Shown: piece after piece, positions 1 to 21,903 of the stretch
How positions within the stretch are numbered: position 1 is the stretch's first letter
How the letters are laid out: each line of letters opens with the position of its first letter
DNA from: a virus
Virus record (IMG/VR): IMGVR_UViG_3300047409_000851
Span: 1-23,930 of that record
Direction: 5' to 3' (one strand)
DNA: 23,930 nt
Program-made: the position numbers and the translations under genes
The notes under the pieces: generated by a model
Told to the model about the DNA's origin: nothing
What the model saw: only the letters and a program-made list of their open reading frames with translations
The model's database searches: none

Positions 1-2061
1 TTAGGCGACGCGAACCCAGAGGGACACGTCGAGGTTGCTGGCGTTGGTGTCGTGCCCGATGAAGCGCCACGTCCCAGAGGTGATGTTGACTGCCGCGCCG
101 CCGCCCAGGCCAGGGATGCCGACGAACTGGCTACCCGAGAAGACGAACGTCGAGCCGAAGGTGCAGCCGGTGAATGCGCCGCTCGCCCGACCCATGATGA
201 TGCTGCCAACGGGACATTGGGAAGAACTGATGGGGCTCGTGACGATGTCGTAATCGACGTTGCTGTGTACAGCCTTCAGCGACGTGCCATCGCCGCCGAG
301 GCGGAACCTGTAGGCGAAGGCGACGTACATGGCGATGGACGTGGCGGTGCTGGTGCCCAGCGTCATCAGGCTGCTGCCGCCATCCATCGAGAGGTCGCCG
401 ATGTGACCGCTGTTGTCGGTGTTCTCCAGCCGGTAGCGGACGCCGCCACCTGATCCCTTGATGTGGAACAGGGTCGATGGGCCAGTCATCGGCCCGACGC
501 CGACGCTGCCGCCATACCGCTGCATGACGATGCTGCGGGCGTTGGGGGTGGTGTCGAAGCCCTGGATTTCAGGGAGGTCGGCAGCGGTGTAGCCGATGCC
601 CAGCCGCACGCCGGGGTTGGCGAGCGTGAAGATCGTATTGGCCTTGGCCGGCCATTCTGCAAGGCTGCCGATGGTCGAGCCACCGTTGACGTTGAGCTTC
701 GCGCTCCCCGGCACGCTGCTAATCACCGGCCCGAGCAGGACCGTGCCGGTGTTCAGCGCCGAGATCATGTTCTGGGCGATGACGTAGCTATATAGGCTGA
801 ATTCGTTGTTTCCGACCGAGCCGATGTTGGCCGCCCCCAGGGCGTACATAGCGCCCCCGGCTGCATTCTGGAAACTGATCTGATCAGCAGAGCCTCCGGT
901 GTTGTTGCATTTGAGCGCAAGCCCTGCGCCCGAAGTCGTCGACTCGATGAAGATCGTTGCGGCCCCGGCGCGCTTGACGTGGAGCGCGGCAAGGATGGTG
1001 CTTACACCGATCCCGACGTTGCCCGACCGGTCGATCCGCATCTGCTCGGCCCCGGCGTTGTCGGCCGAGGTGAGGAAGAGCAGATCGGACCCGTAGTCGG
1101 TGTCGCCGCTGACGCGGGTGTACTGCACCGAGAGGCCAGCAGGGGCAATCGCTGAACCGCCGAAGCTGTTGACGGCCCCGAAGATCATGTACCGCTGCGT
1201 GGGGGTGCTGCCTGCCCCACCGTAGCCTGAGACTACTTGGATGCTGCCGTTCAGGACACTGAGCTTGTCGTAGGGTGCGCCGCCGCCGATGCCGAGGTTG
1301 CCGCCGCTCAGGCGCATATGCTCGGTGAAGCCTCCGTCGTAGAACCGGATCATGCTGCTGCCGGCCGTCGCAACGAGCGAGATGCCCTGGGCGTGGTCGC
1401 TGAAGAGGACGCCCGTGTCGGAGTTGGCAGGCCAGTCGAGGTTGGCGCTGCCGATGGCTGCCAGCCCGACAGCGTGGCCGGCGTTGTTGTTGGCCCTGAA
1501 GACAGCGTAGGAGTGCGTGCCGGTGCTGATGTTGGTGGCGAAGAAGCCTGCGGCACCATCGAAGTTTTCGTCGACACTGATGTCGTCGAGCGATGCGATG
1601 CCGCCGCTGACCGAGATGGTGCCCGTAAGCCCCAGGTCGCCGTCGACCGCGAGGTTGCCAGTGAAGATGACGTCGCCAGTGATCGAGAGGCTGCCGTTGA
1701 AGGCGATGTTGCCGGTGACCCCGAGGTCGCCAATCACGTTGAGGTCGGTCGCCAGGGAGTAGGCAGTGCCGCTCCACTGGGCTACCTGCACGCCCATGAC
1801 GGCCACGCCCATGATGCCGGGCGACACCTTGTACAGGCCGGTGCCAGTCTCCGAGGAGAAGGCGAAGGCAGGCTGCAGGACCGAGCCGTCGACGAGCCTG
1901 AACGGGGCGATCATCCCGCCGCGTCCGTTGCGGTCGAGAGAGTCGGTGATCCCCTGCGCGATGTCGTCGGTGGTCGTGTTCGCCCAGGCCGCCTGGATGA
2001 CGGTGTTGGGGACTACCGGCGGCAGCGGCAGACTGTAGGTGCCTGAGACGTTACGGGGCAT
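1..2061 (-). CDS. Tail fibre / receptor-binding protein
   Basis: A 686-aa protein that probably forms the host-recognition fibre at the tail tip. The N-terminus (about residues 1-100, with VIQAAWANTTTDDIAQGIT followed by a GLYKVSPG segment) is typical of the virion-anchoring end of podovirus fibres. Residues about 106-155 are a run of short repeats of the type GDLxVTGN / GNLAVDG, as in beta-helical shafts. Two later MRLSGGNLGIG and MRIDRSGNVGIG units match the 'SGNVGIG' repeats common in phage fibres. The distal half is glycine/serine rich with no enzymatic motif seen. I chose the ATG at 2061 (MPRNVSG), which overlaps the end of the upstream gene by 11 bases; an 18-residue extension is possible but would lie inside that gene. 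The stop codon is at the first bases of the window, so the gene is complete. Fibre assignment is firm; the receptor is unknown. Confidence 0.85.
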   Translation of the reverse strand: MPRNVSGTYSLPLPPVVPNTVIQAAWANTTTDDIAQGITDSLDRNGRGGMIAPFRLVDGSVLQPAFAFSSETGTGLYKVSPGIMGVAVMGVQVAQWSGTAYSLATDLNVIGDLGVTGNIAFNGSLSITGDVIFTGNLAVDGDLGLTGTISVSGGIASLDDISVDENFDGAAGFFATNISTGTHSYAVFRANNNAGHAVGLAAIGSANLDWPANSDTGVLFSDHAQGISLVATAGSSMIRFYDGGFTEHMRLSGGNLGIGGGAPYDKLSVLNGSIQVVSGYGGAGSTPTQRYMIFGAVNSFGGSAIAPAGLSVQYTRVSGDTDYGSDLLFLTSADNAGAEQMRIDRSGNVGIGVSTILAALHVKRAGAATIFIESTTSGAGLALKCNNTGGSADQISFQNAAGGAMYALGAANIGSVGNNEFSLYSYVIAQNMISALNTGTVLLGPVISSVPGSAKLNVNGGSTIGSLAEWPAKANTIFTLANPGVRLGIGYTAADLPEIQGFDTTPNARSIVMQRYGGSVGVGPMTGPSTLFHIKGSGGGVRYRLENTDNSGHIGDLSMDGGSSLMTLGTSTATSIAMYVAFAYRFRLGGDGTSLKAVHSNVDYDIVTSPISSSQCPVGSIIMGRASGAFTGCTFGSTFVFSGSQFVGIPGLGGGAAVNITSGTWRFIGHDTNASNLDVSLWVRVA

Positions 2062-3772
2062 TTGGGTCCACCTGTTGGTTCTCGTACTGAGCCGCGCCGG
2101 CACCCGCCGCGCCACCGTATGGGGCCGCGCCGCGCAGTGCCCGCAGGATAGCTTCTTGCGTCTTCGGCATCGCCCTGCCGGTCATCCACTGCTGGACCGG
2201 CCGCGTGCCGTACAGGGACGCTGCACCGAGCGTGCCCAGGTTGCCGATCTCGCCCAGGCCGGCAAGGAACGCGAGCGTCGCAGCGCGCTCGGTGGTCCCG
2301 CTGTCGCTGACCTTGGGCACGAGGTTCATGCCCAGCCGCGCCTCTTCCTGCAGCGGCGCAGTGCCCTGCAGGTAGGCACGCTTGCCAGGGATGCGGTCGG
2401 TCGCCTTCGCGGCGTTGACGAGCCCGACCGGGCTGTAATGCTCGGGCACGCCTTCGCTCGCCTTGGCCCCGGTGCGCAGCGCCGCCTTCTGGAGCGCGAG
2501 ACGCTTGCCGTACCCCTTGTCGAGACGGGTGATGGCTGCCAGATCGTCGCGGGGCAGGGCGTTGCGCCAAGTGCTGCCGTACTCTTCGGCGAGCTTCTTG
2601 AACGCCTTGCCGATCTCCTGCTGGCCGGGGTCCTGGCTGTTCATGAAGCTGAAGGCTTTCTTCTTCAACTCCGACTCGACTTGCTGCGCGCCGACGGCTG
2701 ACACCTGGGCTCCAGGCGTCGGGTTCTGCATATGGCTCAGGCGCAGTTGCTGGAACGTGTCGTCGACCATCGCCCGCGCTTCCTTGTCGAGCGCGAGCCC
2801 GGCAGTCAGCTTGCGCATGTCGGGCTGGTAGGTGACGCTGGCGTAGGGCAACTGGTGCTTCGTCAGCACGGCGTCGTATGCCTTGCCGGTCTGGTCGATC
2901 ACCTCGTCGACAGTCTTCACGCCCTTTGCAGCCCCAGGCGGCAGGGCAGCATCGCGGGTCATCTGACGCCACTGATCCATCGCACGCTCGCGAGTGCGGC
3001 GCAGCGGGCCGCCGGCAATGGGTGCCGACTGGGCAGCCTCTTCGGCCCGGCCGACCGCCTTGCCGAAGTACTCCTTGCCGGCAGCCATGCTCTGGCCGAA
3101 GGTCGGCTCGACACCCTTCGCTTCGAGCGCCAGGATGTCGTCGGCCTTGGTGCCGACCGGCTTCGCCAGCCGGCCGACAGCCCTGGTCAGAAGCTGGCCG
3201 CCGGCTGTGCCGGCAGCGTTGACGGCACCGGAGGTCGCACGCTCCTTCAGGTCCCCAGGCGTCGTCGCTGCACCGTAGAGCCCGGCCGCGCCGATCTGCG
3301 CGAGCGCACCGCCAGGGACGAGTGCCAGGGGAGCCTGGGCAGCGATGTCGCCCGTGATCTCGCCCGCCGTCGTCTGCCAGCCTTCGGGCCGATGCTTCTG
3401 GTAGATCTCGGCATCGGCCGCGCCTTCGGCGTTGTCCTTGCCGAAGAGGCTTGTAACCCCACGGTACGCCTTGTCGAGGGTCGAGCCTGCGCCGACGAGG
3501 AACTTCTCGGTGCCGGACATGCCGGCATCGGGTCGGTACTTCTCGGCGTCGGCTGCAGCGTCGGCCGCGCGGCGGTCGACGGTCGGCGCTGCAGCGCGAC
3601 GGTCGACGGTCGGCGCGCTCTGCCATCCGCCAGGAGCGGCAGCAGCAGGCGCAGCAGCCTGGGGCTGCCCGCCCCCCAGCGTGATGATCTCGCTCGTGCC
3701 GGCAGCAGGACGACGACGGTCGACCGGCTGGCGGGCGTCGGCACCGACGACGGGCGCGTCCTGCCAGCCCAT
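2051..3772 (-). CDS. Probable internal virion / DNA ejection protein (573 aa)
   Basis: A 573-aa alanine-rich protein that I read as an ejection-type structural protein: a long, mostly helical protein next to the tail fibre, with no enzyme motif. The N-terminal about 75 residues are low complexity and internally repeated: GWQDAPVV (2-9) recurs as GWQSAPTV (49-56), and APTVDRRAA occurs twice in tandem (about 53-70). Residues about 143-170 are alanine/glycine-rich and hydrophobic, and a second such stretch lies near the C-terminus (AFLAGLGEIGNLGTLGAASLYG), suggesting membrane contact during DNA delivery. Its start ATG overlaps the stop of the upstream gene (TAATG), so translation is probably coupled. 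Function is inferred from composition and position, not from a recognised domain. Confidence 0.6.
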   Translation of the reverse strand: MGWQDAPVVGADARQPVDRRRPAAGTSEIITLGGGQPQAAAPAAAAPGGWQSAPTVDRRAAAPTVDRRAADAAADAEKYRPDAGMSGTEKFLVGAGSTLDKAYRGVTSLFGKDNAEGAADAEIYQKHRPEGWQTTAGEITGDIAAQAPLALVPGGALAQIGAAGLYGAATTPGDLKERATSGAVNAAGTAGGQLLTRAVGRLAKPVGTKADDILALEAKGVEPTFGQSMAAGKEYFGKAVGRAEEAAQSAPIAGGPLRRTRERAMDQWRQMTRDAALPPGAAKGVKTVDEVIDQTGKAYDAVLTKHQLPYASVTYQPDMRKLTAGLALDKEARAMVDDTFQQLRLSHMQNPTPGAQVSAVGAQQVESELKKKAFSFMNSQDPGQQEIGKAFKKLAEEYGSTWRNALPRDDLAAITRLDKGYGKRLALQKAALRTGAKASEGVPEHYSPVGLVNAAKATDRIPGKRAYLQGTAPLQEEARLGMNLVPKVSDSGTTERAATLAFLAGLGEIGNLGTLGAASLYGTRPVQQWMTGRAMPKTQEAILRALRGAAPYGGAAGAGAAQYENQQVDPNAP

Positions 3773-6714: not shown

Positions 6715-7136
6715 CAGTGGGTCCTCCGTGGCGCGAGCCACTTGCATTCTTCGCGGCGCATCCGCATCAGGAAGAGCGAGCCGTCGGGGTGCGCGCCGTC
6801 AAGCTCCACCACGAGCTTGAAGCCCAGGCGTCGGTTGATGTCCAGGGCGGCGACATTGTCGCTCGGGACCATCGCCAGGACTTGGTTGCAGCCCATGACA
6901 TTGAACGGATAGTCGAAGCAGGCATGCAGCATCCGCTTGTCGATCCAGCCCGGCTCGCCCGCCATGTGCATCACGCACGAGGCTTCGTTGTAGCTGTCGA
7001 AGCCGACGACGCCGCGCAGCACGTTGGGGTCGCGGTCGGAGATCGAGCCGATGCAGCGGATGTTGACCGACGGCACGAGCCCGATGCGCCCGCAGAGCCA
7101 GGAGATGAGAGGACCCTGGGGCTGGCAGGCGATCAC
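6714..7136 (-). CDS. GNAT-like acetyltransferase-fold protein
   Basis: A 140-aa protein with the look of a compact GNAT N-acetyltransferase: an RGVVGFDSYNEASCVMHMAG beta-strand region (about residues 38-57), a helix with FDYPFNVMGCNQVLAMVP, then the characteristic NVAALDINRRLGF segment (GNAT motif B, N-aa-x-R-LGF) and a final strand with LFLMRMRREECKWL. The canonical acetyl-CoA pyrophosphate loop Q/R-x-x-G-x-G/A is not obvious. Similar short GNAT-like genes are known in podophage tail modules, substrate unknown. The start is taken as GTG at 7136, because its GTGA overlaps the stop of the nozzle gene; longer in-frame starts would run far into that gene. The stop overlaps the next ATG. Confidence 0.65.
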   Translation of the reverse strand: MIACQPQGPLISWLCGRIGLVPSVNIRCIGSISDRDPNVLRGVVGFDSYNEASCVMHMAGEPGWIDKRMLHACFDYPFNVMGCNQVLAMVPSDNVAALDINRRLGFKLVVELDGAHPDGSLFLMRMRREECKWLAPRRTH

Positions 7137-8722
7137 AGCACGCCCCCAGGCTCGACCAGCGCCTGCCAGCCAACGAAGAGCGTGTCGGCCGAAGCGCGGA
7201 CCCATGCCTCGAAGCTCTGCCCCGAGCCGGACCAGACCGCGACGTCCCAGAGGCCGACGTCCCAGGCACCGCTGCCGGCACCAAGGTATGCCGGCACGGG
7301 GCCGTTGATCTCAAGGTTCCACTCGCTATTCAGCCCGGCCTGGACGCCTGGGGCTGAATCGCTGATGAAGCTCGGCCGGACCATCTGGAACCGCTTGACG
7401 CGGATGCCCTCGCCCATCGGCTGGAAGGCGGTCACCACGAGCCCCTGGAGATCATCCCCAGGCACGGCATCGACCTGACCGTCGGTGCCGCCGACAAAGC
7501 ACTGCCAGATGTTGCCGTCGAGATCTCCCGAGAAGACCTTGCCGTTGAAGTCGATGACGGTCAGCATCGGGTATCCGCGCAGCATCGCGAACGCCTTGTT
7601 GTTGACCTCGTAAGCCCACTGCAGGTTCTCGATGTTGATCTCGGCCCGGTTGACGAGCAGCAACTGCTCGTGCGGCAGGAAGCGCACCTCCCAGTACCGG
7701 GTGTCGAGCGAGCCCGCGATCTCGACCGCCAGGGCACTGTTGATGGCGGCCGCGATCTGCGCGTTCTGGAAGAAGCCCTGGCCGCGCATCAACTCCGACA
7801 TGAAGACCATGCCGCGCTCGGACAGGATCGTGACGTCCTGCTGGTAGTTGGTGAAGTAGCGATGGCCGACCGGCACGCGGCCGATGAACCAGCGACCGAT
7901 CACTTGGAATTCGCCGGCAACGTCGGGGTCGTTGCCACCGTAGACCAGCACGTCGCCCTGGGTGGCGATGGCGATCAACTGGTTCTGCACGCCGACACCG
8001 CTGCTGCCGTCATACGTCCAGTTGATCAGCACCGACAGGCTGCCACCGTTGGGGAACATCGAGCCGAAGTCGAAGGCGGTCGCCGCGCCGGCATAGACAC
8101 CGAAGTCGAGATACCAACCCCGCGTCGTGTCCTTCTCGACGAACCAGACCCGGTTCTTGAAGACGGTGACGAAGCTGAAGAGGTTGGGGTTGACGCCGTC
8201 GATCTGGTTGACCCCGACACCCATCGTGATCTGGGTGAACGTCGTGCCGTCGTAGATCCAGTATCCACTGCCTGGGTTGACCATCAGCATGACGTGGACG
8301 CCAGCGTTGGTCGTGAAGTTGAGCGACGTCCACTCGCCGACAGGCGTGCCGGTCGGGACCGACAGCACCGGCACAGGGACGACGCCTGAGGCTGTAGGCG
8401 TCGTGATGTCGTAGATGTCGCCGGCAGCCGTCGCGGCGAAGAGCTTGTTGTCGCCCAGCGGCGACAGGTACTTCATCTCGGAGCGGACCTCGCCCGTGAG
8501 GTTGGAGACGTGGCGCAGGTAGCCCCGGCGCATCTGCAGCCCCAGCACGCGGGGCACGAGGTTCTCCAGGCGGATCGCCGTCTGCGGGTTGCCGCCGGGC
8601 AGCGGCTGGGTGACGTCCAGGCCGCGCAGCGGCGCACCGAACGGGAACGCCTGATGGTTCTGCGTGGCGCTCGACCGCCTGGGCGTCGTGCGGCGGGGTC
8701 CTTGGTAGGGGACGAGAGCCAT
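7133..8722 (-). CDS. Tail nozzle / hub protein (P22 gp10- or T7 gp12-like)
   Basis: A 529-aa, strongly beta-rich protein. Blocks such as NKLFAATAAGDIYDIT, YWIYDGTTFTQIT, FKNRVWFVEKDTTRGWYLDFG and GNIWQCFVGG look like successive blades of the beta-propeller in packaged-DNA stabilisation/tail hub (P22 gp10) or nozzle (T7 gp12) proteins. The length is close to P22 gp10. It would plug and extend the portal-adaptor channel. The start ATG at 8722 overlaps the stop of the preceding 77-aa gene (ATGA); the gene's own stop overlaps the GNAT start. Fold-level assignment only; the exact counterpart among tail tube proteins is uncertain. Confidence 0.7.
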   Translation of the reverse strand: MALVPYQGPRRTTPRRSSATQNHQAFPFGAPLRGLDVTQPLPGGNPQTAIRLENLVPRVLGLQMRRGYLRHVSNLTGEVRSEMKYLSPLGDNKLFAATAAGDIYDITTPTASGVVPVPVLSVPTGTPVGEWTSLNFTTNAGVHVMLMVNPGSGYWIYDGTTFTQITMGVGVNQIDGVNPNLFSFVTVFKNRVWFVEKDTTRGWYLDFGVYAGAATAFDFGSMFPNGGSLSVLINWTYDGSSGVGVQNQLIAIATQGDVLVYGGNDPDVAGEFQVIGRWFIGRVPVGHRYFTNYQQDVTILSERGMVFMSELMRGQGFFQNAQIAAAINSALAVEIAGSLDTRYWEVRFLPHEQLLLVNRAEINIENLQWAYEVNNKAFAMLRGYPMLTVIDFNGKVFSGDLDGNIWQCFVGGTDGQVDAVPGDDLQGLVVTAFQPMGEGIRVKRFQMVRPSFISDSAPGVQAGLNSEWNLEINGPVPAYLGAGSGAWDVGLWDVAVWSGSGQSFEAWVRASADTLFVGWQALVEPGGVL

Positions 8723-12177: not shown

Positions 12178-13149
12178 TCAGCCGCCGACGAGGCGACCCT
12201 GGAACTGGCGGCCGCTGCAGGTCAGGTTGCCCGCCCAGGCCAGGATGCTGACCTCGGCGTCCTGATTGACGGCGTACCGCTTGTTGGGGTCCAGGGCGAC
12301 CATGTCGCGGGCCGAGTGCGGCCGCAGGAAGAGGTACTTGGTGTTCAGGAAGAACGTCGTGTTGGCGGTGTTGAAGCCGCCGATGCCGCCGTCCAGAACC
12401 ACGTCCGCGTCCATGAACTTGATGGACGGGAACCCCAGGTTACCAACCTCGGGCGACGTGAACCGCTGCTGCGCCTGCAGCGAAGCCATGTACACGCCCC
12501 AGGCCACGTTGTCCTGCACGAGCAGATCGGGCCGGTCGGTGCCGCGCACGAGGCTCGCCCACATCGTGTTCATGAAGCCCTGGATGTTGGCCGCCGTCTG
12601 CGCCACCGTCAGCGTGTACTTCGACGTCCAGAAGGTCCACGTCGAGCCGACGATGCCACCGTAGGCGGTCGTCTGCGAGGCGGGAGCCAGTGCCGGCACT
12701 GCAGCCGCAAGACCCGTGAGGGACTTGCCACCGTAGGTGGTGCCGTCGCTGTAGATGCCTTCCGCCATCAGGTTCGCCATCGTCGACTCGGCGACATTGA
12801 TGCGAGCCTCAAGGAGGTCGATCATCTGCTCCTTGCCGGCGTTCTGGATCTGCTCCAGGCCGGACATCGTGACTGGGCAGGCGAGTTGCTTGATGTTGAA
12901 CTCGGCGGCGCTGATGACGTCGCTCGCTGCCACCGGCAGAAGGTCGTACCCCGAGTACCAGCCGCCGTTCGCGTTCTGCGCGAAGGAAAGCTCTTGGTAG
13001 ATCACGTTGCCGCCCGAGAACGGCTTGCGATTGCCGCGCTGGTCGAGCTTCATGTACAGGGCGTTGTTCTTGGTCACGTTGTCCGCGATCTTGCGGGTGC
13101 GCGACTGGATCGTCGTTGCGACGATGTCCGAGACGTTGGGGAAGGCCAT
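12178..13149 (-). CDS. Major capsid protein (HK97-like fold candidate)
   Basis: A 323-aa protein that builds the phage head. The N-terminus (VSDIVATTIQSRTRKIADNVTKNNALYMKLDQRGNRKPFSGGNVIYQELSFAQN) matches a large family of podophage/siphophage major capsid proteins, with the N-arm, an E-loop-like region with YSGYDLLPVAASDVISAAEFNIKQLACPVTMSG, the spine helix (ARINVAESTMANLMAEGIYSDGT), and a C-terminal A-domain (DLLVQDNVAWGVYMASLQAQQRF ... HSARDMVALDPNKRYAVNQDAEVSILAWAGNLTCSGRQFQGRL). It directly follows the scaffold gene. GGAG lies 6 bases before the ATG at 13149. The 131-bp leader has repeats and a hairpin, and a strong terminator follows, so it is probably expressed as an amplified, largely separate transcript. 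Confidence 0.9.
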   Translation of the reverse strand: MAFPNVSDIVATTIQSRTRKIADNVTKNNALYMKLDQRGNRKPFSGGNVIYQELSFAQNANGGWYSGYDLLPVAASDVISAAEFNIKQLACPVTMSGLEQIQNAGKEQMIDLLEARINVAESTMANLMAEGIYSDGTTYGGKSLTGLAAAVPALAPASQTTAYGGIVGSTWTFWTSKYTLTVAQTAANIQGFMNTMWASLVRGTDRPDLLVQDNVAWGVYMASLQAQQRFTSPEVGNLGFPSIKFMDADVVLDGGIGGFNTANTTFFLNTKYLFLRPHSARDMVALDPNKRYAVNQDAEVSILAWAGNLTCSGRQFQGRLVGG

Positions 13150-15247: not shown

Positions 15248-17236
15248 CTAGAACCCCTTGGCTTCGTCTTCGTTGCGGAGCATGTCGACCAGCGAGCCCG
15301 ACGCCAGGGCGGCGGGGCCGGTGAAGTAGGCGAACTTGCGCCAGTCCTTGGGCTCGTCCTTGAGCCGCTGGGTGCCAAGCTCGCCGGTGACCGGGTCCTT
15401 CGAGGTGCCGGTGTAGCCTTTGGCTTTGTGTTCGCCCAAGCTCGCCTGCATCTCCTCCCAGGACATCTTCGGGAGCTTCTTGATGTCGGGGTGCGCCATC
15501 TCGTGGGGCTCGACGCGGCCCCGGTAGGTGTCCCACAGCCGCCACTGCTCGGGGAAGAGCGGAAGCTCGGGGTTCTTGCCGCGCGACTCGTTGACGTAGT
15601 CGACGATCTTGTTGTAGTACGGCCCGAATTCGGTCGCCGTCTCGGGCTCGAAGGCGAGCTTGCCCGGCTGGATGGCCGGATGCACGCTCGGGTTCACCTC
15701 GCCGCCGGCAAGCCGGTACTTGGCCCCTGGGTGGCTGGAGATCACATCGATGGCGGCACCTTCGAGCTTCTTGGCGAAGCCGGGGTCGGTGCCGGCACGG
15801 GCCGCGAGATCCGAGTGCGATGCCCCAGGCATGCCGGTAAGCTCGCCCAGCCGGCCGACGAAGGCGTGGCCGAGATCCGGGTCCTGCATCAGCCGGTCCA
15901 TGTTGTTGCGGATCATGTGGAGGTCGACCGCGCTCGTGTCGCCCTTCGCGAGATCGAGGAACGGCACCCCCAGGCTGGCCGTCTTCGGCCCGAGCCCCGG
16001 CACTTGGTTCATGATTCTCCGGGCTACATCCTGATAGCCCTCGCCCTGTGCCGGCGTGAACATCTCCGGATAGTCGCGCGCCATCCTGGCAAGCTGGGGC
16101 ATGTTGCCGAAGTCGGCGGTGCCCTTGACGCCCATGCCGCCGCGACTCGCGGCCCCCGTGCCCATCTCGTTGGCCCGTGCAGCCTCGGGCGTCATCGCGG
16201 CGATCCGGTTGATGTCCTCGGGGCCGGTGGCACGGTGGCGCATCGCCAGGAATTCGTTCTGGGTCAGCGGCGCGTTGGGCGAGAGCAGCGAGAAGTTGAG
16301 AGCGTTGAAACGGTCAGCCGCGTCGGTCGGCCCCGGCCGCTCGTAAGTCCGCAGGAACTTCTGCATGAGCTTGTTGTGCATGTCCTGGGGCAGCGCGCCA
16401 GGGTCGAAGTTGTTGGCCTTCATCTCCCAGACGTCGGGCAGCGTGAACTTGCCCTCCAGGCCGCCGGGGACCATGACCTCCTTGCGCGTCGTCAGGTCAC
16501 TCAGCCCCAGGCTTTGGCTGGGCGTTCGCGTCAGGTCGACCCCGTGCTTCTGGCCGAAGGCGGCCCACTCCTCGGGCGACATCTCGCCGGCAGGCTTCGG
16601 CAGCACCGGGGGCTCGGAGCGAAGCTCGGCCCGGTTCGCCAGGGCTTGGTCGACCTGTTGCGCGCCGATGGTCGGCCCCTTGCCGGCCTTCTCGGAGATG
16701 ATCGAGCGGGCGATGTCCGGCTCGCCGGCCTCGATGATCGGCGCCATCGCCGCCGCGCTGCGCTCGATCTGCGGCCCTGCCCTGCCGGCCTTGGCGACCG
16801 CCCTGGTGGCTGTCTTGGCCGCCCTGCCGGCCTTGGTGGGGTCGCCGGCCTCGACCAGACCCGCGATGCCGGCAGCCATCGCCGGGTTGGTCTGGCTGTA
16901 CTGGTCCCAGCCCCGCTCGGCCTGGGCGACGCCAGGGACATTCTTGGTCGCCCAGTCTCCAGCACCCTTGATGTTGGCACCAAGCTCCTGCAGCCGCTGG
17001 CCGCCGCGCTCGGTGAGCGGGCCACCCAGGGACTGGATGCGCTCGACCTGATCGGCCGCGTCCTTGGCGGACTGCTCCAGGCCGCGACCGCGCAGCAGGG
17101 AGGTGATGCCGTGGCTGGCCCCGGTCAGGCCGGCGACCGGGGTCTTGACGAGCCCGAGCAGCAACTGCCCGGTCGCGTCAAGCTGGCCGCCAGCCTCGGT
17201 CGCGCCTTCGCGCAGGAGGTCACTGATGCGCGACAT
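15248..17236 (-). CDS. 662-aa virion-region protein with HhH-GPD-like motif
   Basis: A 662-aa protein downstream of the portal. The N-terminal about 180 residues are alanine/glycine-rich and helical (LLLGLVKTPVAGLTGASHGITSLLRG; AGIAGLVEAGDPTKAGRAAKTATRAVAKAG), like ejection proteins. Residues about 308-450 resemble an HhH-GPD DNA glycosylase: LNFSLLSPNAPLTQNEFLAM (like the LLSxQ helix), then the hairpin VPGLGPKTA (412-420) and SAVDLHMIRNNMDRL (435-449). K418 and D438 correspond in position to the catalytic Lys and Asp of endonuclease III-type enzymes (spacing 20 versus 18 residues). No cysteine is present, so there is no iron-sulphur cluster. The C-terminal part (PLFPEQWRLWDTYRGRVEPHEMAHPD) is unassigned. 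Start ATG at 17236 has GAGG 6 bases upstream; longer starts would run deep into the 93-aa gene. The structural context is firm; enzymatic activity is inference. Confidence 0.6.
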   Translation of the reverse strand: MSRISDLLREGATEAGGQLDATGQLLLGLVKTPVAGLTGASHGITSLLRGRGLEQSAKDAADQVERIQSLGGPLTERGGQRLQELGANIKGAGDWATKNVPGVAQAERGWDQYSQTNPAMAAGIAGLVEAGDPTKAGRAAKTATRAVAKAGRAGPQIERSAAAMAPIIEAGEPDIARSIISEKAGKGPTIGAQQVDQALANRAELRSEPPVLPKPAGEMSPEEWAAFGQKHGVDLTRTPSQSLGLSDLTTRKEVMVPGGLEGKFTLPDVWEMKANNFDPGALPQDMHNKLMQKFLRTYERPGPTDAADRFNALNFSLLSPNAPLTQNEFLAMRHRATGPEDINRIAAMTPEAARANEMGTGAASRGGMGVKGTADFGNMPQLARMARDYPEMFTPAQGEGYQDVARRIMNQVPGLGPKTASLGVPFLDLAKGDTSAVDLHMIRNNMDRLMQDPDLGHAFVGRLGELTGMPGASHSDLAARAGTDPGFAKKLEGAAIDVISSHPGAKYRLAGGEVNPSVHPAIQPGKLAFEPETATEFGPYYNKIVDYVNESRGKNPELPLFPEQWRLWDTYRGRVEPHEMAHPDIKKLPKMSWEEMQASLGEHKAKGYTGTSKDPVTGELGTQRLKDEPKDWRKFAYFTGPAALASGSLVDMLRNEDEAKGF

Positions 17237-17510: not shown

Positions 17511-19607
17511 CTATTGCATGGGTGGACGGGGCATCGGTGCGCCTTGCATCGGCGCACCCTGCAATGGTGCTACCTCCGGGGGCGGCTGCATAGCCATGCC
17601 GCCAGGGCCGGGCTTTTGCTGGTCGGGCGGCCCGAGCAGCGCCTGGGCACCGTGGACGGCTCCCTGGACATGGTGCATGCCGGCCTGGGCGAGGTTCTTG
17701 ACAGCCTGGGTCTTGTTCTTGGTGACCTCGGACTTCGTCTTGTCGATCTCGGCCTGCTCTGCCGGTCCTGGGGGCTGCTTGCCCTTGTCGTTGGCGCTCG
17801 CGGCGGCGATGGCCTGATCCAGCACCGTCTCGATCTCCTTGGAGATCCGGAAGCCGCCCAAGCCCCACTTCATCATCTGCATCACTGCCGGCGCGGCCTC
17901 GGGGTTGGTCTGCAGGAGCGGCGTCACCGACTGGACGAACATGCCGACCGCCTGCATGAACTGGGACCGCGAGTCGCGCTCCTGCGCCCAGTCGACCATC
18001 GCCATCGTCTCGCTCTCGACGCTGATGCGGTAGAACTTGTTGTCGCCTGGGGTTTTAAGGAACTGGATCGCCGGCTGCGCCATGCCGGCATCGGGGCTGT
18101 GTTCGATGTTGGACCGCTGCAGGATCGTCTGCGGCTGGAACCGGTCGCAGATGACCTGGGCGCGGATGCGCTGGCCGCCGGCAACCCAGGCACCGATCTG
18201 CTGCTGCTTGAACTGCAGCCGGTTGCCGCCGAACTGCGCCTTCAACTGCTGCGCGCCCAGGGTTTCATCCGGGTTGGTCATGCCGCGCATGATGTCGCCG
18301 ATGCCCAGCACCTCGTAGAGCGCACCCTTGATCGTGTCGCGCTGCATGGTCAGCTTCTCGATCACTGCGGCAACGATCTCGATGGGCACCCAGTCCATCT
18401 GGCCCTTCAGCCCGCCCTTCTCGGCGAACGCGGCCCAGTTGTCGACCGGGATCATCTGGTTCTCCATGCCCTCTTGGAAGACACGGCCGATGGGCGTGCT
18501 GTTCTTGTCGTACACGCCGACCACCTTGCAAGCCTTCGTCAGGTACTTGATCCGGGTCGTCAACTCGTCGATCTGCTGGTACTGATCCTGGGCGAGCAGG
18601 TAGTCGGCGCGCGGGATGAACTTGGACGTCGTCAGGTTCGCCATCAGCGGCTGCGGGCACGGGAAGAAGCCCTTCAGCACCAGCGGGTCCTTCTTGTAGT
18701 CGCAGATCATGTTGAAGCCCAGGACGTGCCAGTAGGCGCACTTCGTGGTCTTGTCCCAGATCTCGAAGACCCCAGCCTTCTCCCAGGGGTCGTTGATGTG
18801 TCCCAGGGCATCAGCCTTGGACTTCTGCTTGCTGACCGGGATCACCTTGCCGATCTTGTCGCCGAAGCGGGCGCAAAGCTCCTCGCGGTTCATGTACACC
18901 CGGCGGGCGACCCAGCGAACGTCCTGCCAGACCCTGGCCGGGCTCCACCAGAAGTCTTCCCAGTAGATGTAGTCTGCCGGCGCATCCTCGTTGACGATAG
19001 CCTCGTACTCGATGGGCTCGGCCAGGACCGTGCCGGTCGCCGGGTCGGTGACAGCCTCGGTCTTGTTCTTGGCCGTCTCGACCTCGTAGCGATACCAGAC
19101 CTGTCCCAGGCCGACGATCAGGTAGTCGCTGACCGCCTGCCTCGTGATCTCGGGGTAGGTCGACTCGTCGTCGTCCTCGCAGTCGTTGTTCAGCATCCGC
19201 TGCAGGATGTTGGCCGCGACCCTTGAGACGTCGTCCTCGGAATCCTTGTGCGTGTTGCTGACGTCGACGTTGGGCGGCTTGGCGTAGAGGGAGGACTTCA
19301 GCACCTCGATGTTCGACCAGAACAGGTTGAACTTCGAGTCGGCATCGTTGAAGCTCGCGCCGTCGCGCTCGTCGAGATACCGCTGCACGAGCTTCTTGGC
19401 GGTGATGTGGAACTTGGAAAGCTCCTTCTTGGCCGCCTGAAGCTCGCGCTCCCAACGCTCGGCCAGCTTCGCCGGGTCCTTGCCCTGGTCTTTCTCGGGC
19501 ACCAGCGACTGATCCCCAGGCTTCTTGCCGTCGTGGATGTCGTGGTACTCCTTGCCGTCGGACGGCTTTTCGTCACCAGCGACTGCAGCTTCACCGTATG
19601 TAGCCAT
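17511..19607 (-). CDS. Portal protein
   Basis: A 698-aa protein close in length to the P22 portal (gp1). It would form the dodecameric ring through which DNA is packaged and ejected. Signs: the N-terminal FNLFWSNIEVLKSSLYAKPPNVDV and DYLIVGLGQVWYRYEV segments, WWSPARVWQDVRWVARRVYMNREEL, a long FIPRADYLLAQDQYQQIDELTTRIKYLTKA helix, DIMRGMTNPDETLGAQQLKAQFGGNRLQFKQQQIGAWV and VESETMAMVDWAQERDSRSQFMQAVGMFVQSVTPL, all typical of podophage portals. The C-terminal about 60 residues are Pro/Gln/Met-rich with a short APMQGAPM repeat and probably disordered. Its ATG overlaps the large terminase stop (ATGA). Confidence 0.88.
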   Translation of the reverse strand: MATYGEAAVAGDEKPSDGKEYHDIHDGKKPGDQSLVPEKDQGKDPAKLAERWERELQAAKKELSKFHITAKKLVQRYLDERDGASFNDADSKFNLFWSNIEVLKSSLYAKPPNVDVSNTHKDSEDDVSRVAANILQRMLNNDCEDDDESTYPEITRQAVSDYLIVGLGQVWYRYEVETAKNKTEAVTDPATGTVLAEPIEYEAIVNEDAPADYIYWEDFWWSPARVWQDVRWVARRVYMNREELCARFGDKIGKVIPVSKQKSKADALGHINDPWEKAGVFEIWDKTTKCAYWHVLGFNMICDYKKDPLVLKGFFPCPQPLMANLTTSKFIPRADYLLAQDQYQQIDELTTRIKYLTKACKVVGVYDKNSTPIGRVFQEGMENQMIPVDNWAAFAEKGGLKGQMDWVPIEIVAAVIEKLTMQRDTIKGALYEVLGIGDIMRGMTNPDETLGAQQLKAQFGGNRLQFKQQQIGAWVAGGQRIRAQVICDRFQPQTILQRSNIEHSPDAGMAQPAIQFLKTPGDNKFYRISVESETMAMVDWAQERDSRSQFMQAVGMFVQSVTPLLQTNPEAAPAVMQMMKWGLGGFRISKEIETVLDQAIAAASANDKGKQPPGPAEQAEIDKTKSEVTKNKTQAVKNLAQAGMHHVQGAVHGAQALLGPPDQQKPGPGGMAMQPPPEVAPLQGAPMQGAPMPRPPMQ

Positions 19608-21145: not shown

Positions 21146-21903
21146 CAGCCTGCGCCGCCGATCCAGATGCTGGGCGTCACTGCGTCGCTGTCCAGCACCT
21201 CGCAGACCGCCTTGCCCAGCACCTCTGCCGGCAGCCGGTGCCACTGCATGCCGTAGTCGAGCCGCACGAGCCCTGCGTGCTGCAGGTCGCGGCTGTCGAG
21301 CGCCTCGTACCGCACCGCATCGTTGAAACGCTGCGCGCCGTCGACGACGTCGATGACCAGCAGCGTGCCTCCAGGCTTCAGGTACGCCTGGGCCATCGTC
21401 AGCATGCTGGGCACGCTGTCCGCGTGGTGCAGCGAGTAGCCCATCAGCACCACGTCGAACGTGCCCAGGGCCGCCAGGAGCGTCGGGTCGCGCATGTCCC
21501 CATGCACCAGCCTGCCAGGGCACTGGCAACGCTCTAGCTGCGCCCTGGATGCGTTGACCAGGGTGAACCGGAGGTCAGGCTGCGCCTCGCGCCAGTACCG
21601 CTCCATGCCGGCAACGCCGCAGCCCAGGGACAGCACGCTGGAACCCGGCGGGGTGTTTACACGCTCCAGCACCATCAGGCTGTGCTTGCGCTCGTCAGGG
21701 TCGAGCAGGAACAACTGCAGCACGCTGACGCCTTGCGACAGCAGCCAGTCGGTGACGCCACCGACGACACGCTCGTCAGCGTAGAGCGGATGGTCTGCCG
21801 GCGGCCAATTCCCAGGAACGTAATCGTGGCCGTTGGCACCCGAGCCCTGGGGCTTCATCACCGTCTGCCAGCCCTTCAGCGAGGCTACATCGACCTCGTC
21901 CAT
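21145..21903 (-). CDS. Class I SAM-dependent methyltransferase
   Basis: A 252-aa Rossmann-type methyltransferase. Motif I is SVLSLGCGVAGMERYW (89-104), the end of strand 2 is FTLVNAS (113-119), then VHGDMRDP (133-140), motif IV-like FDVVLMGYSLHHAD (149-162), and LKPGGTLLVID (175-185). The residue expected to hold the SAM ribose is Asn117, not Asp/Glu; the form (V/L)NxSxxQL is known among small-molecule and lipid-type methyltransferases. No DPPY or PCQ motif is present, so it is unlikely to be a DNA base methyltransferase. The C-terminal part (RLPAEVLGKAVCEVL) may be a substrate cap. It sits between the small and large terminase genes. ATG at 21903 follows the upstream stop by 3 bases. Substrate unknown. 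Confidence 0.8.
   Translation of the reverse strand: MDEVDVASLKGWQTVMKPQGSGANGHDYVPGNWPPADHPLYADERVVGGVTDWLLSQGVSVLQLFLLDPDERKHSLMVLERVNTPPGSSVLSLGCGVAGMERYWREAQPDLRFTLVNASRAQLERCQCPGRLVHGDMRDPTLLAALGTFDVVLMGYSLHHADSVPSMLTMAQAYLKPGGTLLVIDVVDGAQRFNDAVRYEALDSRDLQHAGLVRLDYGMQWHRLPAEVLGKAVCEVLDSDAVTPSIWIGGAG
21655..21664 (+). repeat. GTTTACACGC motif, copy in the methyltransferase gene
   Basis: Copy inside the methyltransferase gene, encoded as CGT GTA AAC (Arg-Val-Asn, residues 81-83). Confidence 0.6.

Follow-up and report, generated by a model that had tools for sequence, protein, structure and literature searches.

The locus and its protein

The window, the whole 23,930-nucleotide stretch of viral DNA analysed here (IMG/VR record IMGVR_UViG_3300047409_000851), belongs, judged by its sequence, to an Mx8-like phage, with terminase, portal, scaffold-like, capsid and tail genes that are homologous to and collinear with those of the Mx8/Mx9-like Myxococcus podoviruses. 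The gene order runs from the portal gene (positions 17514-19607, minus strand; phrog_12082, nearest Mx8/Mx9) through a small ORF, the gene for a 662-amino acid protein termed P0002, a Zn-ribbon ORF and a scaffold-like gene to the major capsid gene (12181-13149, minus strand; phrog_9953), an arrangement that bears out the placement of P0002 between portal and scaffold genes in an earlier, sequence-only reading of this DNA. The order in Mx8 is portal, small Zn-ribbon-like gene, scaffold and capsid. Unlike the window, Mx8 has no P0002-like gene between the portal and the Zn-ribbon/scaffold genes, and such a gene is likewise absent from BUCT555 and ppBjS10J-1 at the loci compared.

The ORF reported in that reading is real, although it had been given no strand; it is read from the minus strand, where it spans 15251-17236 and is followed by a stop codon at 15248-15250. 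Its ATG start is backed by the homologous proteins of L002 and L003, which open with MSxxSDLLREG. All of the sequence features that had first drawn attention to P0002 were found in the protein. The helix-hairpin-helix motif VPGLGPKTA occupies residues 412-420 (15977-16003, minus strand) and includes K418 (15983-15985), a putative catalytic lysine in the first turn of a predicted helix; AVDLHMIR at residues 436-443 (15908-15931, minus strand) includes D438 (15923-15925), a putative catalytic aspartate that would cap the N-terminus of the predicted helix that follows. These assignments draw on motif, structure model, profile alignment and conservation. The lysine-to-aspartate spacing is 20 residues, as opposed to 18 in endonuclease III (EndoIII). 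A stretch at residues 308-335 that had been likened to the LLSxQ helix contains LLSPN at residues 317-321 (16274-16288, minus strand), which is conserved in homologues and is the equivalent, by profile alignment, of LLSAQ in EndoIII and LTAN in Ogg2. P0002 has no cysteine. The motif pair is more than a chance occurrence: a loose form of it appeared in 2 of 200,000 shuffles of P0002 and in none of approximately 4,480 distinct ORFs of the retrieved loci that do not belong to the family, and it recurs in every homologue that covers its region.

In the closest relatives of the window the slot is occupied by proteins with a constant N-terminal region of approximately 150 residues and one of three types of C-terminal module. 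The HhH-GPD type is found in the window, L002, L006, L090 and L110, the second type in L003, L156, L159 and L164, and the third in L157, with the same module also present in L168-L170. In P0002, the N-terminal module corresponds to residues 1-154 (16775-17236, minus strand), a proposed delivery part that is common to proteins of the same locus with unrelated C-terminal modules. For instance, residues 1-154 of the proteins encoded by L164:4001-5710 and L165:1527-3479 match at 99.4% identity, and the sequence beyond is unrelated apart from a short tail. Similarly, the window and L157 are nearly identical in the capsid and neighbouring small genes and differ in the module.

The modules of the second and third types resemble one another (profile score 30.5, as against a shuffle maximum of 22.8). 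By eye, the L003 module (KTAH...GDAHFSR) was suspected to be a divergent HhH-GPD domain; its profile score of 17 lies below the best shuffles, and profile comparison gave no support for the L157-type module as HhH-GPD either. These undescribed modules (L156:4001-5713, L159:4001-5593 and L157:4001-5575) carry the signatures GMSSPSSEV..VGDAHFSR and TAMSSPEMN..KRHNFAANFEG..STIDTRMM.

Homologues, conservation and predicted fold

Homologues were collected in two scans. The first, seeded with P0002 residues 382-458, yielded approximately 70 viral contigs, and the second, seeded with residues 254-345 in another part of the domain, added further contigs that were not picked by the motif. Approximately 80 viral contigs were found to contain the domain. 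The portable unit corresponds to residues ~168-637 of P0002 (15326-16735, minus strand), aligning to the window at approximately 45-50% identity in most homologues; outside of this unit, the N-terminal regions of the homologues are unrelated or very long. The extent of roughly 160 residues proposed earlier is thus too small, as the conserved unit comprises approximately 470 residues, in which an HhH-GPD core is flanked on either side by conserved extensions. This core, at residues 289-446 (15899-16372, minus strand), is delimited by alignment to EndoIII/Ogg2 profiles and by fold matches. In comparisons of P0002 with the L002 homologue, dN/dS falls from 0.40 over residues 1-150 to 0.19 over the domain and 0.09 over the core, and the domain is under purifying selection.

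Two large conserved flanks are lacking from the glycosylases used for comparison, and the substrate may therefore be unusual. The flank N-terminal of the core carries PGGLEG.FT.PD.., and that on the C-terminal side LFPEQWR..D.YR.R.EPHE.AHPD, which is part of a highly conserved extension at residues 560-595 (15452-15559, minus strand) that continues as ..KLP and that is without equivalent in the ~210-aa Ogg2 and EndoIII sequences compared.

Within the motif pair, K418 is invariant in 40 of 40 homologues and D438 in 39 of 39 (the dereplicated set together with the second-scan sequences). Other motif positions do vary among the 40 homologues: residue 416 is G or S, and H440 is replaced by W and R443 by N twice each. 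The contigs of the second scan, chosen without reference to the motif, also keep both residues, as evidenced by the divergent L110 homologue, which reads TPGLSTKTGS...AVDIHGVR. Conservation is high throughout, with 56 of 278 core columns (20%) invariant; because of this, invariance of the lysine and aspartate is by itself weak evidence and was set aside as a stand-alone proof.

A family profile of 29 homologues was compared with a merged profile built from EndoIII (E. coli Nth and two others) and Ogg2 (three sequences), each of which came from a PDB chain or was verified against one. The score of 38.1, over 132 columns (residues 289-446), was reached by none of 150 column shuffles (maximum 21.6), and the reversed profile scored 15.4. 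In this alignment K418 falls on K129 of MjOgg, D438 on D147, and LLSPN on LTAN/LLSAQ. Against EndoIII only, the family profile scored 33.7 (52 columns), which no shuffle reached; against Ogg2 only, the score of 20.1 was within the shuffle range (1 of 150 reaches it), with the lysine and aspartate aligned.

Structure prediction leads to the same superfamily. An AlphaFold model of residues 160-650, built from the 29-sequence alignment (pLDDT 84, pTM 0.87), places a hairpin at 410-416 between helices 401-409 and 417-427, with D438 directly before helix 439-450. In a Foldseek search of the PDB, this model matched D. radiodurans EndoIII-1 first (4unf; probability 0.92) and TmOgg second and third (0.93), the other appreciable matches being MjOgg (0.75) and MUTYH, with unrelated proteins listed at probabilities of 0.04 or less. 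A second model, limited to the core (residues 258-535, 39 sequences, pLDDT 82), retrieved HhH-GPD enzymes at ranks 1-12 (MjOgg at probability 0.98, AlkA, EndoIII, MUTYH/MutY and TmOgg), the first unrelated PDB match having a probability of 0.04. In BFVD, one homologue was followed by a Pandoravirus 3-methyladenine glycosylase. No Foldseek E-value against solved structures was below 0.001, and TM-scores normalised by target were at most 0.52, and for these reasons the relationship has to be regarded as remote. The link to HhH-GPD glycosylases is remote, yet independent lines agree on the superfamily and on the residues. Together, the profile alignment, the two models and the invariant residue pair uphold the HhH-GPD reading, and P0002 very probably carries this fold. 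Neither of the outcomes named beforehand as refuting it, a predicted structure lacking the fold or free variation of the lysine and aspartate, was obtained.

The likeness to EndoIII that had been put forward stands in so far as EndoIII is among the nearest folds, but archaeal and thermophilic Ogg2 enzymes are equally among the nearest solved structures. With Ogg2 (MjOgg, 3fhf/3knt; TmOgg, 3n0u), the enzymes that the core model matched best, P0002 has in common the HhH hairpin, lysine and aspartate in register, the LTAN/LLSPN helix and the lack of an Fe-S cluster, which Ogg2 8-oxoguanine glycosylases naturally do without. Sequence identity to Ogg2 is however only about 10-16%, and Ogg2 proteins are about 207 residues long as compared to approximately 470 for the P0002 domain. 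With EndoIII, which ranks first in the search with the longer model, P0002 shares the PGxGxKTA and VDxHxxR motifs; it differs in its large extra conserved regions and in having no cysteine, hence no [4Fe-4S] cluster. P0002 is not filed as an EndoIII because it lacks the [4Fe-4S] cysteine motif that is a feature of EndoIII and MutY, nor as an Ogg2 because the profile score against Ogg2 alone is within the shuffle range.

Searches of P0002 or its alignments against Pfam, PHROGs, NCBIfam, PADLOC and PDB sequences gave no meaningful match. A hit to TIGR01217 is noise (15 bits, the cutoff being 521), weak Pfam HHH matches occur in 5 of the 29 family members, and PF00730 went unmatched across the window at E-values up to 10; the Pfam cutoff for PF00730 is a detection threshold and not a biological feature. 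No relatives of the domain were found among annotated phages, plasmids and 84,980 bacterial and archaeal genomes, in scans that look first for short peptide patterns and that distant relatives could escape; there is therefore no host or prophage link. A link to DUF7178 is conceivable. The C-terminal ~470 residues are apparently a phage-restricted new branch of the HhH-GPD fold, and the domain is most aptly described as a new family within the HhH-GPD superfamily, in a new setting.

Candidate functions of P0002

The residues expected of a bifunctional glycosylase/AP lyase are retained in P0002, which is likely to be an active enzyme, with AP-lyase chemistry probable because the lysine is kept. 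In the proposed mechanism, the HhH hairpin (410-420) would grip the DNA backbone and a base would be flipped out of the DNA, whereupon D438 would activate K418 for attack on C1' and the base would be released; nicking of the strand by beta-elimination may follow.

Several observations bear on where such an enzyme would act. The P0002-type domain adjoins terminase and portal genes in several other distinct phage groups, and in the long relatives L131, L114 and L079 it is present in one polypeptide with ART-PolyVal, a domain named for the polyvalent proteins that are predicted to be injected with DNA (Iyer et al. 2017, PMC5512222). P0002 is like these polyvalent proteins in its location near portal and terminase genes, in modular exchange and in the ART-PolyVal fusion of its long relatives (PMC5512222). 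It is unlike them in consisting of an N-terminal module and a glycosylase-like domain, with no other recognised polyvalent domain. From the locus, the ART-PolyVal fusions and the swapping of modules, P0002 is probably packaged and injected. The N-terminal ~150 residues would be a separate module that directs P0002 to the inside of the procapsid or across the portal, an idea made directly testable by the sharp L164/L165 swap, and the glycosylase would enter the host alongside the genome and act within minutes of entry.

On balance, an active HhH-GPD glycosylase delivered as cargo into the host with the phage DNA is the best explanation as a whole. With regard to the role of such a cargo, a slight and tentative preference goes to repair, in which damaged bases of the oxidised type handled by Ogg2 would be excised from the entering phage genome; the reason is that Ogg2 enzymes provide the nearest folds. 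Almost as likely, owing to the behaviour of the payload slot, is an attack on host or modified DNA. The broader proposition, that phages package and inject an HhH-GPD glycosylase as interchangeable cargo of a 'payload slot' among the head genes and so remove damaged or modified bases early in infection, is put forward as a plausible conjecture. A literature search that covered few subscription papers found no virion-delivered DNA glycosylase of HhH-GPD fold, and the terms 'glycosylase' and 'endonuclease III' are absent from the main text of the polyvalent-protein paper (PMC5512222).

Within the injection reading, P0002 might instead serve offence or counter-defence, excising bases, whether normal or modified, from the DNA of the host or of a DNA-based defence; this version is possible and is given only slightly less weight than repair. 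The modular swapping and the ART-PolyVal fusion resemble those of conflict effectors, and the unique conserved extensions could confer a new base specificity, but the domain evolves slowly (dN/dS 0.09-0.19), where many effectors would be expected to change fast, and PADLOC gave no match. It is less probable that P0002 is active but not injected, in which case it would be made late and act in the producing cell, for example by checking or repairing DNA before this passes the portal or as it does so. Such a function would suit a gene that lies in the late head operon and adjoins portal and terminase genes. It would not suit the gene's absence from Mx8, the fusion of the same domain to a family assigned to injected proteins (PMC5512222), or an N-terminal module that is common to unrelated cargo modules, which looks like delivery and not repair.

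The sequence-only reading had also allowed for a dead HhH-GPD fold reused for DNA binding. Such a fold could equally have a structural role in the head or the portal vestibule, as might be suggested by the location among head genes and by very high conservation over the whole 470 residues, as in structural proteins. This option is now disfavoured and rather improbable: the catalytic lysine and aspartate are invariant while neighbouring motif positions vary, the gene is absent from Mx8, BUCT555 and ppBjS10J-1 and therefore not needed for the head, and the domain is replaceable by unrelated modules in related phages. A coincidental motif in an unrelated all-helical protein, to which the lack of any matching curated family model might point, is very improbable given a motif pair far above chance, a profile score above all shuffles and two structure models whose best matches are HhH-GPD enzymes.

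If delivery of an active glycosylase is correct, base excision would number among the activities packed into the heads of some phages, and DNA glycosylases would join RNA polymerase, ADP-ribosyltransferase and anti-restriction proteins among injected phage enzymes. It would also define a locus at which rival phage payloads can be read from what comes after one N-terminal module. Furthermore, none of the family libraries consulted annotates the domain, and a set of 'hypothetical' phage proteins could immediately be given a name.

Other genes of the window and its relatives

Just upstream of terL, an ORF at 21148-21903 (minus strand) is, by eye, class I SAM methyltransferase-like, with homologues in L002, L075 and L135. 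Among the tail genes, a GNAT-like acetyltransferase is encoded at 6717-7205 (minus strand), the Mx8 homologue of which is annotated as an acyl-CoA N-acyltransferase and potential holin. The product of 2054-3772 (minus strand), 573 residues long, contains APTVDRRAA repeats, matched no PHROG and is possibly another protein that is internal to the virion or ejected from it. In two of the related contigs, capsid homology is split over several overlapping frames (L006:6165-7730 and L089:9258-10194), reflecting sequencing errors, an intervening element or frameshifts.
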